NCBI GenBank assembly: GCA_949126835.1
Contig: OX421495.1
Span: 5,596,011 to 5,660,010, forward strand
DNA length: 64,000 nt
From: Anisus vortex
Taxonomy: Eukaryota; Mollusca; Gastropoda; Planorbidae
Reading direction: 5' to 3'
A program made the translations under genes and the position numbers. Below the pieces are notes generated by a model. The model was not told the DNA's origin and did not search any database. It worked only from the letters and a program-made list of their open reading frames with translations. Each line of letters begins with the position of its first letter. Positions within the stretch are counted from its first letter, which is position 1. This document shows, piece after piece, positions 1,100 through 43,426 of this stretch.

Positions 1100-1266
1100 C
1101 TTTCTGAGCCATGCCAGTCTTATTTTCGTATTTGTGTATGAGCTGCTCCGCCTGCTTCACCGTGTAGTTTGGGTAGAGGATCTCGTTCAGCCGAGGATCT
1201 CTCTGCTGCTTGTTTAGAAAGTCACAGAACTGTTCCACTGTTAAATACGGCTTCTTCTTGGCTCCT
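1100..1266 (-). CDS. PLCB1: PLC-beta exon: EF-hand region, last visible exon
   Basis: The exon is 167 bp, starting after acceptor GTACAG. It reads [46 protein letters not shown] and then a split Gly codon at donor AAAG/gtaaag. [11 protein letters not shown]/F-P is a strong PLC-beta/delta EF-hand signature, and the KKG ending matches the position before the Q-L/I-S block that precedes the catalytic X domain. The next exon should encode that block and was not found in 1-1,099. Translation beyond the donor stops after a few codons. Confidence 0.94.
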
Positions 1267-1837
1267 CTGTACAATTAAACAAAAACTTGTCAACAAATCG
1301 TAATCAAGTGATTCAAGCCAATATTGTAAAAAAAAAAAAAGAAGAAAAAAGAGAGGACAAGACATTTTGCAACAATAAATATAAATTCACACTAAAACAA
1401 TACCGCAAACAAAAAATGAATATATATAAAAGTGAAAAGTATTTCTGTTAAACCAAATTGATCCACAGGGTTGCAGATGGAGCATTTTTTAAATTCATTT
1501 TTTTAAGTTGAAAGATTCAGAGAGAGAAACATCTCTGACCTATGAACACCAATGAGCTCTTCAATGTGTTTTGATCTCAGTTTAACCGTTTCCTCCTTGA
1601 AGTCACCGCATGTCCCTTCTACTGGCAAGTCACTTGCAGTCGCCGTGCGACACCGATTACTAGTTGTTTTGCTTCTGATCCCTATGCGAGTTTTTAAATG
1701 CCTAATTGGCCGATTATAAACTTTTACAATGAGAACAATAGTGACATTATTTTTACATTTTTAATTTTATTTTTAGCGCAATCATTCGGTTGGAGGGATA
1801 GAAGGCTAGCATCTGAATAAGGGTGAAACGGCTATCC

Positions 1838-1985
1838 ATCAAGCAGTAATGTATGACCACACCAGCCTAGCAGTAATGTATGACATGACAGCCTAGCAGT
1901 AATGTATGACGACACCAGCCTAGCAGTAATGTATGACCACACCAGCCTAGCAGTAATGTATGACATGACAGCCTAGCACAAATGT
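1838..1985. repeat. Minisatellite, ~25-27-bp unit, 6 copies
   Basis: The unit contains GCAGTAATGTATGAC followed by either CACACCAGCCTA or ATGACAGCCTA, alternating as two subtypes. It lies in the intron between PLC-beta exons at 1,266 and 2,328. Confidence 0.9.
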
Positions 1986-2327
1986 AAGACTGAGATCTAA
2001 ATTAAGAAAATGTATACTTGTGGTTAGTTACCGTAAGTGGCTACTGGATATATTTTGAAACAAAAAATAATATTCAACTTGGACAATGATAAACAAAACT
2101 TTTAGCCATTTATTTGTCTAAGTTATAAGAAAAAATCTTAGTGAAAAAAATTTAATACAAAAATCTATCTTGTTAAACACACACACAAAAAATATGCTTC
2201 ATGTAAAACTAGAAGTAAATTTTTAATAAATTGTTAAAACAACCAATGATGAAAATTTAAATGGTAAGGATTTAAACATTAAATTTTTAATAGTAGCACT
2301 TCAATAAATTCCAGCAGTGAAACTTAC

Positions 2328-2428
2328 AGCTCATCAAATATCTTGTCCACTTCTGTTCTACCAATCAGGTGTCGATAAAAATTAAAAAATCCTTCAAAGG
2401 TAAACTTCTGAGGGTTCAGGGCGTCTGA
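2328..2428 (-). CDS. PLCB1: PLC-beta exon: EF-hand region
   Basis: The exon is 101 bp, phase 0 in and 2 out: SDALNPQKFTFEGFFNFY, then RHLIGRTEVDKIFDE plus CT. The acceptor is CCTTCTAG and the donor GAGCT/gtaagt. CT joins to A of the following exon to make Leu, giving [12 protein letters not shown] as in PLCB1. Confidence 0.93.
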
Positions 2429-2639
2429 CTAGAAGGGTAAAAAGTCAACATTTACATTTCATGGGTAAACATTTCATACCATAAGATAAAGTGCCTAGTA
2501 ATGACATATTATTGTTTTTTTACACTTGTGTTTAATTTCTTTCAAAACAACAGCATGGGTATCTTACAAATTCTCTCTTCTATACTATACATAAGTTTAT
2601 TGCATTCCAAGCTTTTCCCGGGTCTTGTATTTTATTAAG

Positions 2640-2720
2640 GGTATATAAGAGTTGTTAAAACATGTTACTTGTCCTAAGTAGTTCAGGCAACCCATTCCAT
2701 GACTGGATGCCACTAAAATT
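2640..2720 (-). mobile_element. LINE 3'-end fragment (TAAGA-tail family)
   Basis: The plus strand reads TAGTTCAGGCAACCCATTCC, the complement of the family's coding WNGLPEQ segment. Only an internal part of the 3' end is recognisable. Confidence 0.65.
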
Positions 2721-2871
2721 AAACATGATGGCATTGTTCTTATACTTATTGTATTTACCCTAAAACCATGTGTTTTAAACAACAACAAAAATAATAAAGT
2801 TCTAAATGTGAATCCCTGGACTTAAGGCTGTTATTATTTAAAAAAAACATGCTAATGAATAAGTGTAAAAA

Positions 2872-3145
2872 AAGTAAGTAAAGTACTAGTCGGACCAAAT
2901 TAATCCATAGGGCCGGTGAAGCAGCGTTCAACAGTTTCTGCATTTCTGCATACTAGGTGATTGTGTGGCCAGCACTATGCACAGCCACCTTCACTTTACC
3001 CCAACTAAGGTCAGGTACCCATCAGAGCTGGGTAAACTCAGGGACACCCTTCAGACCCGGGAAAAAATCCTAGCCTAAACCAGGATTCGAACCCAGGACC
3101 TTCGGTACACCAACGGCTTCCGCGCCACTGTAATGAACGAGTGTA
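2872..3145 (-). mobile_element. tRNA-derived SINE (family 1), near full length
   Basis: On the minus strand it has a tRNA-like head with a B-box-like GGGTTCGAATCCTGG, a body including CTGATGGGTACCTGACCTTA, and a 3' end of GTCCGACTAG then ACTTTACTT. It lies in the PLC-beta intron just downstream of the exon at 3,171. Confidence 0.88.
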
Positions 3146-3170
3146 ACAAGTAATAAACTTGATAGCTTAC

Positions 3171-3255
3171 CTTCCCAGCATGGAATCCAACACTCTCTAA
3201 GGCTTTCTCCACTTTCTTTCTATCCTCTCTGTTGTTGGCTATTGTTTTGATAATG
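3171..3255 (-). CDS. PLCB1: PLC-beta exon: EF-hand region
   Basis: The exon is 85 bp. After completing an Asn codon it reads IIKTIANNREDRKKVEKAL and then ESVGFHAGK. The acceptor is CTATAG and the donor GGGAAG/gtaagc. The DRKKVEKAL block is characteristic of PLC-beta enzymes between the PH domain and the later EF hands. It ends in phase 0. Confidence 0.93.
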
Positions 3256-5771: not shown

Positions 5772-7389
5772 CAGCGATGGCGAACCTATGGCACGCGTGC
5801 CACAGCTGGCACGCAGAGCCATTTCTGTGGGCACGCGAGCAATTTCCAAAAATGGAACAGCTTAGTTATGGTCACACCGCTAGGGATGGGGTGGGCCAGA
5901 AAAAGTTGTTTCGGTTACTAGTGACGGGGCACCTTGCATGGTGGGGGACACATCTGGTTTCATATAGTTCTTTGTTAAAGAAGCAAAACACCCAGTCGTT
6001 CCGTGTCACTGTATTATACACTAAGAAACTCTTTGTGCCAGGGATAGCAGCAAGAAATTAGATGATATCCTTAAAGATGTCACAAAAATGGTCAATTACA
6101 TCATGGCTCGTGCTCTTAATTGTCGACAGTTTCACTCACTTCTTGATGAGGTCAAGGTGCAATATAATACTTTACTTATGTACAATAATGTCCGGTGGCT
6201 GGGCAGAGGTCGAGTATTGGAGAGATTTGTAGCATGCTTGGATTAAATAAGTCTTTTTATGATTCAAAAGGGGCAGGATTATCCACAGCCCAGTGATATG
6301 GTCTGCCTTATTAACCTCAAATTTTTTACAGATTTTACAGCACACTTCAATGAACGGAATAAAAAATTGCAAGGTTCAGAAAAAACAGCAGAAATAATGT
6401 TTGTGATATCAGAACATTTAAAAGAAAACTGCAGGTTTTTGAAAGATACCTACAAAGTGGACAGCTGAAATATTTTCCAAATGTAAAAATGCATTTACAA
6501 AATTGTGTAACATTTACCGACAATCCTTCAAGCAATCAGGAAATCTACAAGGAATGGTCTAGCATTGTAGCAGCTGCAAAGGAGAATAGATTTGCACAGT
6601 TCTGTAAGATGGAGACAACCCTCTGTTTTTTTACTTCCACGGATAAAGCCAAATTTGAAGACCTTGATCTTTCCTGCTAATTGTGGTTAGATTTAGGAAA
6701 TCTGGAAATGGAGCTATTGGAATTTCAAGAAAGCTCTATCTGAAAAAATTAATTCTATTATCTGCGTGAAACACTTGAGCAGATAGAGTGTGAAAGGATG
6801 GCAAATGACAGCATAGTTCGTAGCTCTGATGATGAAATCCTTAAAGTGTGGAACTCTCTGCCAAATAATTTCAAGTTGATGAAAGCACTTGGCATTGCAC
6901 TTCTTACTTTGTTTGGGTCATCTTATGCTTTTGAGCAGCTGTTTTCAACTTTAAATTATATCAAATCTAATACCAGAAACAGACTGGCAGATGACCTGAG
7001 TGCTGCATATGTCGCTCTTAAAGTTACGGGGCATGAGCCAAGGCTGGACAAAATATCATCATGCACACAACAGCAAAAATCACATTAATTATGCAAAATG
7101 CATACAATTAACTGAAATAACTGTAATTGTATTATATTTATAATTTGTTCATTTACTACAGTTCATGTTTTTTTTATAAGACTGTTGGTATCATTTAAAT
7201 ATCTGTTAATTTGTCATTCTTTTTTTTTTACAAAAGATGTTAATTAGTTCGGACAACTGTATGAGCTGTTGTTTTTAAATGTAAAACCTCAGTATTTTGT
7301 TTTAACTGCTGTGTTGGCACATTGAAAGAAATAAGTTTGTCTTGCATTGCACTTTGGGCACGCGGCCTCAAAAAGGTTCGCCATCACTG
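5772..7389 (+). mobile_element. hAT transposon, degraded but end-complete (1,618 bp)
   Basis: Imperfect terminal inverted repeats are CAGCGATGGCGAACCTATGG on the left and, read inward from the right end, CAGTGATGGCGAACCTTTTT. It is flanked by perfect 8-bp duplications CTATAGGC (5,764-5,771 and 7,390-7,397). The interior holds broken transposase pieces on the plus strand, including FGSSYAFEQLFSTLNYIKS near 6,918-6,975 (hAT dimerisation region; family pattern F-G-S-x-Y-x-C/F-E). Stops and frameshifts separate at least four pieces, so it is not coding-competent. It inserted into a LINE fragment. Confidence 0.93.
6798..7088 (+). pseudogene. hAT transposase C-terminal remnant
   Basis: A 96-codon open piece ends at a natural-looking stop. 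Residues about 25-75 read LMKALGIALLTLFGSSYAFE then QLFSTLNYIKSNTRNRLADD, the helical dimerisation domain typical of hAT transposases and domesticated relatives. Other pieces of the same protein lie upstream around 6,061-6,240, 6,259-6,468 and 6,489-6,680, separated by stops or frame changes. Confidence 0.88.
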
Positions 7390-7462: not shown

Positions 7463-7788
7463 GTTACACTGGATCTGATACACTGGATCTGATACACTGG
7501 ATCTGATACACTGGATCTGATACACTGGATCTGATACACTGGATCTGATACACTGGATCTGATACACTGGATCTGATACACTGGATCTGATACACTGGAT
7601 CTGATACACTGGATCTGATACACTGGATCTGATACACTGGATCTGATACACTGGATCTGATACACTGGATCTGATACACTGGATCTGATACACTGGATCT
7701 GATACACTGGATCTGATACACTGGATCTGATACACTGGATCTGATACACTGGATCTGATACACTGGATCTGATACACTGGATCTGATA
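7463..7788. repeat. 14-bp satellite, about 23 nearly perfect copies
   Basis: The unit is ACTGGATCTGATAC, almost without variation over about 325 bp. Three frames stay open because 3 x 14 = 42 carries no stop on the minus strand. The low divergence implies a recent expansion. Confidence 0.95.
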
Positions 7789-8210: not shown

Positions 8211-8344
8211 TTCTTCATGGAGACTTTGCCTTCATTGTTCAGCACCAAACTGAACCTGGTGAAGATTTTACTCAAGTAGGTGAGGGCGCTGCTGTTCAGG
8301 GTCAACAGGTTGATGGAATACTTCAGGAGTTCATCCACCCACTC
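8211..8344 (-). CDS. PLCB1: PLC-beta exon: PH/EF-hand junction
   Basis: The exon is 134 bp, entering in phase 0 and leaving in phase 2. It reads EWVDELLKYSINLL and TYLSKIFTRFSLVLNNEG and ends KVSMK plus AA, which joins to C of the next exon to give the conserved KN-II-K. The acceptor is GAAACAG and the donor AAGAA/gtgagt. It corresponds to the helix leaving the PH domain and the first EF-hand helix of PLC-beta (family W-x-E/D-E/D-L-x-K/S). Confidence 0.93.
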
Positions 8345-8894
8345 CTGTTTCACAACAACACACAACAGCAAAACATTTATTTAATTCTAATTTAGTTTTC
8401 AATCAATTCATTAAAGCCAGGAAATCTCTCAATAATTTAAACAGCACCCCCAAAAAGAAAACAACTGTCAGCCATTAAGAGATTGACATGTTTGTTTTTC
8501 TCCAATTAATTGAATTTTTTTTTTTTTTTAATGCTTTTGTTGTGGATGATTTTATTTATACAAAGCTGCATGGACTTTTATTCTTTCATTTTAATTTCCT
8601 GAAAACAGTTATTAAGCCCATAGCTGAAACAGTCCCAATAGCCGTTAGCAATATGCTGCAATTGGACTTGCAAAGTTTAAAATTGTCAGCCACTAAATGG
8701 CTAGATCCAGAGAACCTTGTAATTCTCTACAAATCTTAAAAAAACATCAATTTCATCATCAGCATCAATAAAGACAGGTAATCAAGTTTTGGGAATAATT
8801 TGTATAATGAGCAAAGTATGCATTGGCATTTGATAATTATAAAAGTTTAGGAGGAAGGTATAAATGATTCACTTCATAAAGATTCATTGCAATT

Positions 8895-9696
8895 ACAGTG
8901 TGGATTGGTCAGTTTACTGGGCAAAGTCTTTATTGGGTGAAGCATTAACTTGAGCAAAACTTTCTTTGGTTGGAACAATAACTGGGGCAATAGTTTCATT
9001 GGTAGAAACAATTACCTAAGCAATATCTTTATTGGTGGAAACAATTACCTGGACAATAACTTTTTTGGTGGAAACAATTACCTGGGCAATATCTTTATTG
9101 GTGGAAACAATTACCTGGGCAATATCTTTATTGGTGGAAACAATTACCTGGGCAATATCTTTATTGGTGGAAACAAATACCTGGGCAATATCTTTATTGG
9201 TGGAAACAATTATCTGGGCAATATCTTTATTGGTGGAAACAATTACCTGGGCAATATCTTTGTTGGTGGAAACAATTATTACCTGGGCAATATCTTTATT
9301 GGTGGAAACAATTACCTGGGCAATATCTTTATTGGTGGAAACAATTACCTGGGCAATATCTTTATTGGTGGAAACAATTACCTGGGCAATATCTTTATTG
9401 GTGGAAACAATTATTACCTGGGCAATATCTTTATTGGTGGAAAAAATTATTACCTGGGCAATATCTTTATTGGTGGAAACAATTATTACCTGGGCAATAT
9501 CTTTATAGGTGGAAACAATTATTACCTGGGCAATATCTTTATTAGTGGAAAAAATTATTACCTGGGCAATATCTTTATTGGTGGAAACAATTACCTGGGC
9601 AATATCTTTATTGGTGGAAACAATTACCTGGGCAATATCTTTATTGGTGGAAACAATTACCTGGACAATAACTTTATTGGTGGAAACAATTATTAC
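8895..9696 (-). repeat. 33/36-bp minisatellite derived from a PLC-beta exon end and splice donor
   Basis: On the minus strand each unit carries TTTCCACCAATAAAG, ATATTGCCCAG and GTAAT: the last exon codons and the donor of the exon at 9,697-9,837. Units are 33 bp (VIVSTNKDIAQ) or 36 bp (VIIVSTNKDIAQ), so length variation never shifts frame. About 20 units read open to a TAG near 9,016. Copies become degenerate toward 8,895, which suggests growth from the exon side. One unit has lost its donor (CAG/ATAAT, near 9,210). Confidence 0.93.
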
Positions 9697-9837
9697 CTGG
9701 GCAATATCTTTATTGGTGGAAACAAAGCTGACAGTCTCTAGGTTGACCATATCTGTTCCATACACTATACTGACTATTTTATCTTCCAGTGGAATGTCCA
9801 TCTGCCCAATCTGTAGGGACTCTCTCAGTTTGTGATC
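9697..9837 (-). CDS. PLCB1: PLC-beta exon: end of PH domain, with amplified splice donor
   Basis: The exon is 141 bp, 47 codons, phase 0: DHKLRESLQIG, EDKIVSIVYGTDMVN and FVSTNKDIAQ. The acceptor is TTTTACAG. The end given here is the first possible donor, GCCCAG/gtaata at 9,697, which joins directly to EWVDELLK of the next exon as in the family. The last 30 or so bases of the exon plus the donor are repeated about 20 more times downstream. All the repeats stay in the same reading frame, so the true 3' end of this exon may lie up to about 0.7 kb further on (down to about position 9,030). The extent is the uncertain part; the exon identity is not. Confidence 0.9.
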
Positions 9838-25754: not shown

Positions 25755-25823
25755 CTTGGGTACTTTGACTTGACTTCCTGTCCGCGTGTCCTTGATGAGT
25801 GAGATGTCCAGAAAGTCCATTTC
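25755..25823 (-). CDS. PLCB1: PLC-beta exon: PH domain
   Basis: The exon is 69 bp, 23 codons, phase 0 on both sides: EMDFLDISLIKDTRTG through VKVPK. The acceptor follows a tract ending TTTCAG and the donor is CCCAAG/gtaaat. The residues match the PH-domain segment of PLC-beta (family pattern E-x-D/E-x-L-D-x-S/A-x-I/V-K-D-x-R-x-G). The intron between this exon and the next is about 16 kb and is filled with repeats. Confidence 0.93.
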
Positions 25824-27354: not shown

Positions 27355-27600
27355 AGACTCACAAAATTCGGTGACTGCGTTGATAATTGTCTAAATTTGG
27401 TGACAGTGTTGATAACTGTCTTAATTTGGTGACAATGTCGATAAATGTCTAAATTTTGTGACGGTTTTGATAATCGTCTAAATTTGGGGACAGTGTTTAT
27501 ACATGTCTACATTTGGTGAGAGTGTTGTTAATTATCTAAGTGTGGTGACAGTGTTGATAATGGTCTAAATGTGATGACAGTGTTGATAACTGCCCCGCTT
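27355..27600. repeat. ~31-bp minisatellite, about 8 diverged copies
   Basis: The unit contains GGTGACAGTGTTGATAACTG followed by TCTAAATTT. It abuts the PLC-beta exon at 27,639 on its intron side. Confidence 0.88.
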
Positions 27601-27638: not shown

Positions 27639-27716
27639 CTTGTTTTGATCTCTCCAGTACAGTATCTGACCCTGTTCGTCAACTTTCAAGGTCACCGGCG
27701 TGCCCAGTTGTGAACT
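27639..27716 (-). CDS. PLCB1: PLC-beta exon: PH domain, first visible exon
   Basis: The exon is 78 bp, 26 codons, phase 0 at both ends, starting SSQLGTPVTLKVDEQ and ending LYWRDQNK. The acceptor is a pyrimidine tract ending CCCCAG and the donor is AAG/gtgagt. It corresponds to the first beta strands of the PLC-beta PH domain, just after the conserved KWD motif that the missing upstream exon should encode. The frame is fixed by joining in phase to the next exon (EMDFLDIS). Confidence 0.9.
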
Positions 27717-39910: not shown

Positions 39911-41544
<1,634 letters not shown>

Positions 41545-43426
41545 TTATGTGGCTATAGGTTCTTGTTCTTGACAGTAAAATTAAATACAAACCTGTCACC
41601 GTTATTTAACTGCGAAGCAGGACTAAGAGAGGGAGAACATCTGAGCCCTCTATTATTTTCTATGTTTATTAATGACTTAGATTCTTATTTAGAACTAAAA
41701 GGCGCAAGTAGCTTAACTATCAGCAACGATAACAACGCAGATTTACTAAAAATATTCACATTATTATATGCTGACGACACAACAATCCTAGCTAAAACCG
41801 CAAAAGAATTACAGAAAAACTTAAACATTTACAGTAACTATTGCAAGGAGAACCACTTAAACATAAATGAAGATAAGACCAAAATAATGATATTCGGTAG
41901 AAAGGGTAGGGTAGGAAATCAGAAATTTGTACTAAATAATAATATAATAGAAATAGTTTCTAAATTTAAATACCTGGGAATAATCTTCTCAGCTAACGGT
42001 TCTTTCTCAGAACACAGGAAATATTGTAAGATGAAAGGTACTAATGCTATGTTCAATCTTCTCAGAAAATGCCATACACTAAGCTTGCCCATAGATAGTC
42101 AAATTGATCTATTTGATCAAACAGTACTACCTATACTAACCTACGGTTGCGAACTATGGGGTATGGAAAATTGTGACATTTTAGAAAATATTAGACTAAG
42201 ATATTTTAAGATGATTTTAAAATTGAACACAAAAACACCAAATTATGTAGTCCTAGGCGAAACAGGCAAACTTTATATAAGATCATTTATTTAAAAAAGA
42301 ATGTTACACTTCTGGATCAAAATAGCGACCGGCAAAGAAAGCAGGATTTCTAAAATAATATATAACATTTTACTTAAAGAGCACCTGGTTGAAAAATGCA
42401 AATGGTCCGCCAATATAAAGTTACAACTGGAACAACTAGGATTAGGATATATTTGGTTAGAACAAGATATAATAGATACTAAACTTTCAAAATCAATAAT
42501 TAACTTACGTATAAATGATCAAAGTAAACAAGAACTTTATGAGAGTATGCAAATAAGCAATAAAGGTAAATTATATAGCGCTCTAAAATATAAATCTGAC
42601 TGGGAAAATATTCCACCCTTTTTAAATAAATTACATCTGAAAGAAGCTATCTATATAGTAAAAATACGAACAAGTAACAATAATTTCCCTGTTGAACTGG
42701 GTCGCCACTCCAGAATAGATTATAATTTAAGATTATGTCCCCTTTGCTTAAAAGATATAGGAGATGGATTTCACTATTTACTCCAATGTGTGCACTTCAA
42801 TGCCCAACGAAAAATGTATCTAAAAAAATATTACTATAACAGACCTAATGTAGAAAAAATGTCGGACCTGCTTAATTCTAGCTCTCTAAAAGAACTTAAA
42901 AAACTAAGCATATTTTCAAAAATATTAGTATCTGCTTTTAAAAAATGAAAAAAAGGTTAGAAATGTTTAAGTATTTTAACTTGTTGGTTTGTCACTATGC
43001 TAATGAGAGATAGTCGTAGAAGAAATGTAATATACTAAGCCGCAAGAAAAATTGTGAATGATTTCTTAAATGTTTGTTCTCACTATGTTAATGCTGTGCA
43101 GGTCTAATGAAAGTGATTTACCTGTATGTCTATGTTAGTAAATTAAGTTGTTGTTTTTTTTGTTTTTTTTCTTTGTTAGTTTTTTCCCCCCAAAAATTGT
43201 ATTATAAACTAAATTATCCCCCCTGAATTTTCTTTTAGGATACCTTTAATTAATAAATTTTTTATTACTTTCATTTTTATTACTAATATTGGTATTACTA
43301 TTATTGTTCAATTTATTATTCACAAATGCTATAATTTTCTTATGTTTTTGACTATGCCTTTATTGTACCTATGTACTATGTGGCAAATAAATATTGTTCA
43401 TTGTTCATTGTTCATTGTTTTCAACT
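41545..43426 (+). mobile_element. LINE (non-LTR retrotransposon), 5'-truncated
   Basis: It begins inside the reverse transcriptase domain, continues through the C-terminal part and an AT-rich 3' UTR, and ends in a short (ATTGTTC)n tail. 5' truncation and a microsatellite tail are typical of target-primed reverse transcription. A second copy of the last 70 bp is at about 52.7 kb. The clade is not assigned. Confidence 0.92.
41563..42948 (+). pseudogene. LINE reverse transcriptase, C-terminal half with one in-frame stop
   Basis: One reading frame is interrupted only by TAA at 42,292-42,294; the same frame resumes at once and runs to a terminal stop at 42,948. Visible motifs are GLREGEHLSPLLF, the catalytic YADD (41,767-41,778) in LLYADDTTILAK, and LNINEDKTKIM and FKYLGI after it. 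Further on are a YGCELWG thumb-like segment and a zinc-knuckle-like C-x2-C-x9-H-x4-C (42,736-42,789) of the kind found at the C terminus of several LINE proteins. The endonuclease and first RT motifs are missing, so it is non-functional. Confidence 0.93.

Follow-up and report, generated by a model that had tools for sequence, protein, structure and literature searches.

A PLC-beta exon in the window, the stretch of 64,000 nucleotides analyzed here from contig OX421495.1 of Anisus vortex, has its end and its splice donor repeated many times into the following intron. This raises the question of which of these donors joins the exon to the next one, and whether the repeat lengthens the encoded protein or is removed with the intron. 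We consider a tolerated junction minisatellite, in which the exon-proximal donor is dominant, to be the probable answer.

With the first donor taken as the splice site, the exon and its successor together align without gaps to residues 84-174 of PLC-beta3, for which solved structures exist, and match Pfam PF17787 (E = 1.1e-13), bearing out the assignment to PLC-beta in the earlier note as well as its phase 0 connection to the EWVDELLK exon. In a tblastn search, a Biomphalaria PLC-beta (P0121) is matched by exons along almost its entire extent, spanning C4:5623738 to 5570634, with identities of 55-97% per block. The gene continues past the window to about C4:5570634, with the PH, EF-hand-like, X, Y, and C2 regions in order and PLC-beta relatives as the best matches (coordinates of features in Table 1).

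Read on the minus strand, the final 27 nt of the exon recur together with 6-9 nt of intron as 23 further units, 33 bp long in 16 cases and 36 bp long in 7. The unit parse yields 24 units, that is, unit 0 at the exon end and the copies reaching position 8917, and TRF places an array of 23.9 copies at 8917-9725 (score 1175). The repetition of exon end and donor in 33- or 36-bp units described in the earlier note is confirmed, although the array stops at 8917 and does not extend to 8895. The copies stand head to tail with copy-to-copy variation, as in a minisatellite, and the repeat spans a splice junction, its unit being composed of the exon end and the donor of a junction set by homology, with unit 0 lying within the TRF array. 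The exon's last 27 nt are unchanged in 13 of the 23 copies, and the distal units 21, 22, and 23 carry 6, 9, and 5 mismatches in 27, respectively. A genome search with the array found only its own place, the weaker matches being other minisatellites, and a dispersed element was rejected accordingly.

The native donor, CAG/GTAATA (the slash marks the junction), follows ...FVSTNKDIAQ, and the donor part of the copies is GTAATT or GTAATAATT. We find CAG/GTA after 19 units (0-13 and 15-19), in keeping with the "about 20" potential donors proposed earlier, and TAG/GTAATT after unit 20. The accompanying statement that nearly every unit recreates the donor stands for these 19 units but not for unit 14, where an internal donor is lost, or for the three distal units 21, 22, and 23; after all four, the donor is gone or no longer donor-like. 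The exon frame stays open for 678 nt past the exon, up to a TAG at the end of unit 20, confirming a frame open through about 20 units, and 18 copied CAG/GTA donors lie in frame ahead of this stop, on top of the native one. Use of the last productive donor, that of unit 19, is predicted to add 648 nt, or 216 residues. The intron lies outside the array and has an acceptor of its own at 8345.

Table 1. Features of the PLC-beta locus in the window.
Feature	Coordinates	Strand	Basis
Exon coding for part of the PLC-beta PH domain (141 nt, DHKLRES...STNKDIAQ), ending in phase 0	9697..9837	-	Homology to PLC-beta3 and to Elysia, Lottia, and Biomphalaria PLC-beta
Unit 0, final 27 nt of the exon (VSTNKDIAQ), from which the array derives	9697..9723	-	Unit parse; Biomphalaria VSTNKEIAQ, then EWVDELLK
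23 tandem copies of exon end and donor, 33 bp (16) or 36 bp (7)	8917..9696	-	TRF, unit parse
Open-frame stretch that would be added if the unit 19 donor were used (at most 648 nt, 216 residues)	9049..9696	-	Frame and unit parse
First in-frame stop, TAG, end of unit 20	9016..9018	-	Frame and unit parse
Three decayed distal units, 21-23, each still 33 bp	8917..9015	-	Unit parse
Next PLC-beta exon (EWVDELLKYSINLL..., EWVDELLK...)	8211..8344	-	Homology
Three following PLC-beta exons: 3255-3171, 2428-2328, 1266-1100	1100..3255	-	Homology
Preceding PLC-beta exon (EMDFLDISLIKDTRTGSQVKVPK)	25755..25823	-	Homology
PLC-beta exon (SSQLGTPVTLKVDEQGQILYWRDQNK), 5' end approximate	27639..27716	-	Homology

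With respect to donor strength, an ad hoc score gives 11.5 for CAG/GTAATT and 11.0 for CAG/GTAATA, both above the median of 10.0 for 27 donors of the PLC-beta gene. Under a generic donor matrix, 17/19 copied donors score at least as high as the native donor, and 11 copied donors match CAG/GTAAGT at 8/9 positions versus 7/9 in the native donor. Donor sequence alone therefore does not account for use of the first site.

The comparison with related species covered 157 different PLC-beta relatives, obtained by merging the best 120 of 6052 and the best 120 of 5539 matches from two database searches. Among these best matches, the junction is ungapped in all 157, and neither the repeat nor any insertion at the junction is present in a single one. 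Biomphalaria is the closest of the listed relatives, with Lymnaea and Physella next (source names retained), and the Biomphalaria protein reads VSTNKEIAQ/EWVDELLK at the equivalent position. This indicates that unit 0 is the ancestral exon end from which the array is derived and that splicing at the first donor yields the conserved length; judging from the aligned relatives, the exon-proximal donor is the ancestral one.

The earlier note found it unusual that the repeat keeps the frame, a view that is weakened by the local background. In 310 kb around the window, TRF reports 126 arrays with a period of at least 10, and among the 65 with at least three copies, 25 have a period divisible by three; the in-frame period of the array is near chance. 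Moreover, the distinct changes in units 1-20 comprise 7 replacing, 3 silent, and 1 stop, close to the 74:23:2 expected from all single changes of the 33-bp unit, indicating nothing that suggests selection on the encoded residues. No excess of silent over replacing changes was found in these units (Fisher P = 0.72, computed for 8:3 versus 76:23). Given these periods and changes, frame-keeping as a sign of selection is unsupported.

We observe that the PLC-beta array is not unique and that junction copying recurs in this genome, at donors as well as acceptors and often out of frame. PLC-beta is followed on its strand by a gene matching TMEM260 (PF11028, E = 9.6e-25), and in one exon of that gene the acceptor and exon start are repeated in 42-bp units over 5.3 kb (G000:C4:5555815-5561080; L005, L006). 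CAG is kept in 125/125 units of this array, the frame is open for 1806 codons and in frame with the exon, and the last 12 nt (TCTTTGTTTCAG) are identical across all 125 units. None of its 16 variants, 9 replacing versus 7 silent (P = 0.12), falls in these last 12 of the 42 positions (0.0046 if independent), which is suggestive of constraint on the acceptor. An upstream TMEM260 exon likewise has its acceptor duplicated, in 32-bp units with 2.5 copies. Behind a bZIP exon (PF07716, E = 9.1e-8), a 30-bp unit starting with the exon's donor GTGAGT occurs in 132 copies, which fill the start of the intron (G000:C4:5502677-5506606; L010); of the 111 further donors, none as strong as the native one, 75 are in frame, 6 of them ahead of the first stop.

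In a gene without a Pfam match (array sites C4:5524938 and 5525802), two arrays copy junctions, one of 23 bp with ATACAG/GTGAGA and one of 44 bp with an exon end and GTAAGT; both are out of frame, with the exon frame reaching a stop at 1 and 36 nt, respectively. The last bases and donor of a kinase exon closest to MAP kinases recur in 31-bp units with 18.5 copies (C13:19274313-19274886; L049 with L070), where 6/17 further donors are in frame, all 6 behind a stop; two copies of this array have the stronger donor GTGAGT. At another acceptor array (L056), the pyrimidine tract is copied in copies without AG. As a separate observation, a 28-bp minisatellite in another gene lies a few bases past a likely donor, GTAAGT (L004, 1485-1700), although this was found by DNA likeness to the array and is not an unbiased case. 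If the genes with out-of-frame arrays work, their exon-proximal donors must be used.

To place these cases in context, we considered 119 junctions in the 310 kb, 77 from codon-bias exons, 38 more of PLC-beta by homology, and 4 of TMEM260 by eye, with the exons outside PLC-beta being mostly codon-bias predictions without a homology check. With the PLC-beta junction array left out, a junction lies inside 6/125 arrays (1.9 expected under uniform placement, P = 0.01; 3.3 under same-intron placement, P = 0.10), one of which (22 bp x 2.8, C4:5792320) is doubtful by eye, and 15/125 lie within 52 bp of a junction (uniform null 4.3, 0 of 500; same-intron null 7.4, P = 0.001). A kinase sample was drawn from 140 listed matches, of which 60 with at most one internal stop and outside tandem clusters were chosen and 40 were obtained regardless of arrays. 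An array lies within 300 bp in 14/40 of these exons, in 6 of the 14 within 52 bp of a junction (P = 0.023, distances by eye), and a donor-copying array is found in 1/40. The closeness of arrays to junctions is thus supported, and better survival near exons, where deletions cost, could be the reason for it. An enrichment specific to spanning arrays is not proven, with P = 0.01 against the uniform null but P = 0.10 within the same intron.

These observations fit an account that builds on the established anatomy, open frame, orthology of unit 0, and recurrence of such arrays. The minisatellite would have begun at the exon-intron junction, where a tandem duplication took in 27 nt of exon and 6-9 nt of intron, and from there it would have expanded into the intron. 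The original exon end would still join the next exon through its own exon-proximal donor, presumably the one mainly used, and nearly all of the array would be removed as intron. That the unit length is a multiple of three would be chance; the units would change without visible constraint on the encoded residues, the distal ones having decayed, and the array would be nearly neutral. The locus would then be one case of a recurrent event in a minisatellite-rich snail genome, with junction-spanning arrays at donors and acceptors. Exon-proximal use is supported by the conserved length in all listed relatives and by the out-of-frame arrays at other exons.

The strongest rival reading, which we regard as rather unlikely, is that the downstream donors are really used. 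The protein would then carry n x 11 or 12 extra residues (at most 216) in the C-terminal helix of the PH domain, forming a ladder of isoforms and, should animals differ in unit number, length variation as well. Three points count against exon-proximal dominance and in favor of this reading, namely, the frame open over 18 in-frame copied donors, the scores of 17/19 copied donors, which equal or exceed that of the native one, and a human precedent. In human MSH6, c.3936_4001+8dup is a 74-bp tandem duplication of 66 nt of exon end and 8 nt of intron, which gave no normal transcript from the allele; in an allele-specific test, the downstream donor prevailed over exon skipping at a ratio of 7:1 (PMC9818763). 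The two cases are alike in that the exon end and first intron bases are duplicated and the donor is present twice, but the MSH6 allele as described there has one extra copy, out of frame and disease-linked, whose downstream donor is used, whereas the snail has many in-frame copies in a gene that otherwise looks intact.

The TMEM260 acceptor array, also in frame, points the same way, and so does the amount of exon copied: this is 27 nt in PLC-beta, about 24 nt in TMEM260, about 18 nt in the 44-bp array, and 8 or 9 nt in the kinase array, and the arrays copying most coding sequence are the in-frame ones, with the 44-bp array as an exception. The amount of exon copied may decide whether a copy competes. 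Against downstream use, none of the 157 listed relatives has an insertion here, nothing suggests selection on the encoded residues, and some other junction arrays of the genome are out of frame. A broader version, on which we look with more doubt, holds that arrays copying enough exon survive if the unit keeps the frame, since splicing moves among the copies, such that the length of PLC-beta, and of TMEM260, would be set by the chosen site and the copy number and the junction would be a length-variable coding minisatellite.

It is very unlikely that the array acts in splicing with the protein unchanged, either because U1 binding at the copied donors strengthens or slows exon recognition, or because splicing within the array removes units piecewise at their CAG/GT ends. 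Every unit does end in AG/GT, and tandem AGGT segments are an accepted route of intron birth, with multi-copy 24-bp AGGT segments carrying introns across copies reported in fission yeast (PMC4974935). The 18 nt ahead of CAG (ACCAATAAAGATATTGCC), however, are pyrimidine-poor and would make weak acceptors, and the losses after units 14, 21, 22, and 23 give no sign that donors are preserved by selection. An assembly artefact, with a wrong copy number or a non-existent array, is highly improbable: although the array is known from a single assembly, its copies differ in the order of 33- and 36-bp units and in point changes, its unique flanks match PLC-beta on both sides, and long reads easily span lengths of 0.8 kb.

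Tandem alternative donors and acceptors (GTNNGT, NAGNAG) usually consist of two sites some nucleotides apart. The array resembles them in its adjacent sites of like strength and in the in-frame differences of few residues, with 19 donors at a spacing of 33-36 nt in the snail. Variable internal tandem repeats at exon-intron boundaries have been described in human genes in segmental duplications. These are alike in having units of about 30 bp that are sometimes retained and sometimes spliced out, the coding cases being mostly in frame, but they average four units and are read as new introns or longer exons (PMC2812944), whereas the snail array has 23 copies of one exon end and donor running into an existing intron of a conserved signaling gene. 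The AGGT-segment route of intron gain shares tandem copies each with AG/GT but creates a new intron inside an exon (PMC4974935); in the snail, an old intron had its own donor multiplied. The literature searched contained no multi-copy junction array in a mollusc, nothing resembling a twenty-fold donor ladder, and no genome rich in arrays of this kind.

How the true splice site is chosen over equal or better adjacent copies is an old question, usually put to engineered duplications. This genome offers natural replicates, namely, PLC-beta with 19 in-frame donors, TMEM260 with 125 acceptors, and the kinase exon with out-of-frame donor arrays next to it. Exclusive use of the exon-proximal site would mean that the choice depends on exon context and not on donor sequence; use of downstream sites would mean that a Gq effector owes its length to a minisatellite. 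That a single duplication ruins splicing of MSH6 makes the apparent tolerance in the snail more interesting.

Elsewhere in the PLC-beta gene, an array lies within 52 bp of 5/54 junctions, the array junction itself excluded. The gene also has a 29-bp minisatellite located 50 bp past another of its donors (window 27364-27589) and, in an intron, an array of 23 copies of a 14-bp unit at 100% identity (window 7465-7788), which is very young or kept uniform. Reading frames at window 41500-42948 look reverse-transcriptase-like, and those at 6025-7088 resemble a hAT-type transposase.
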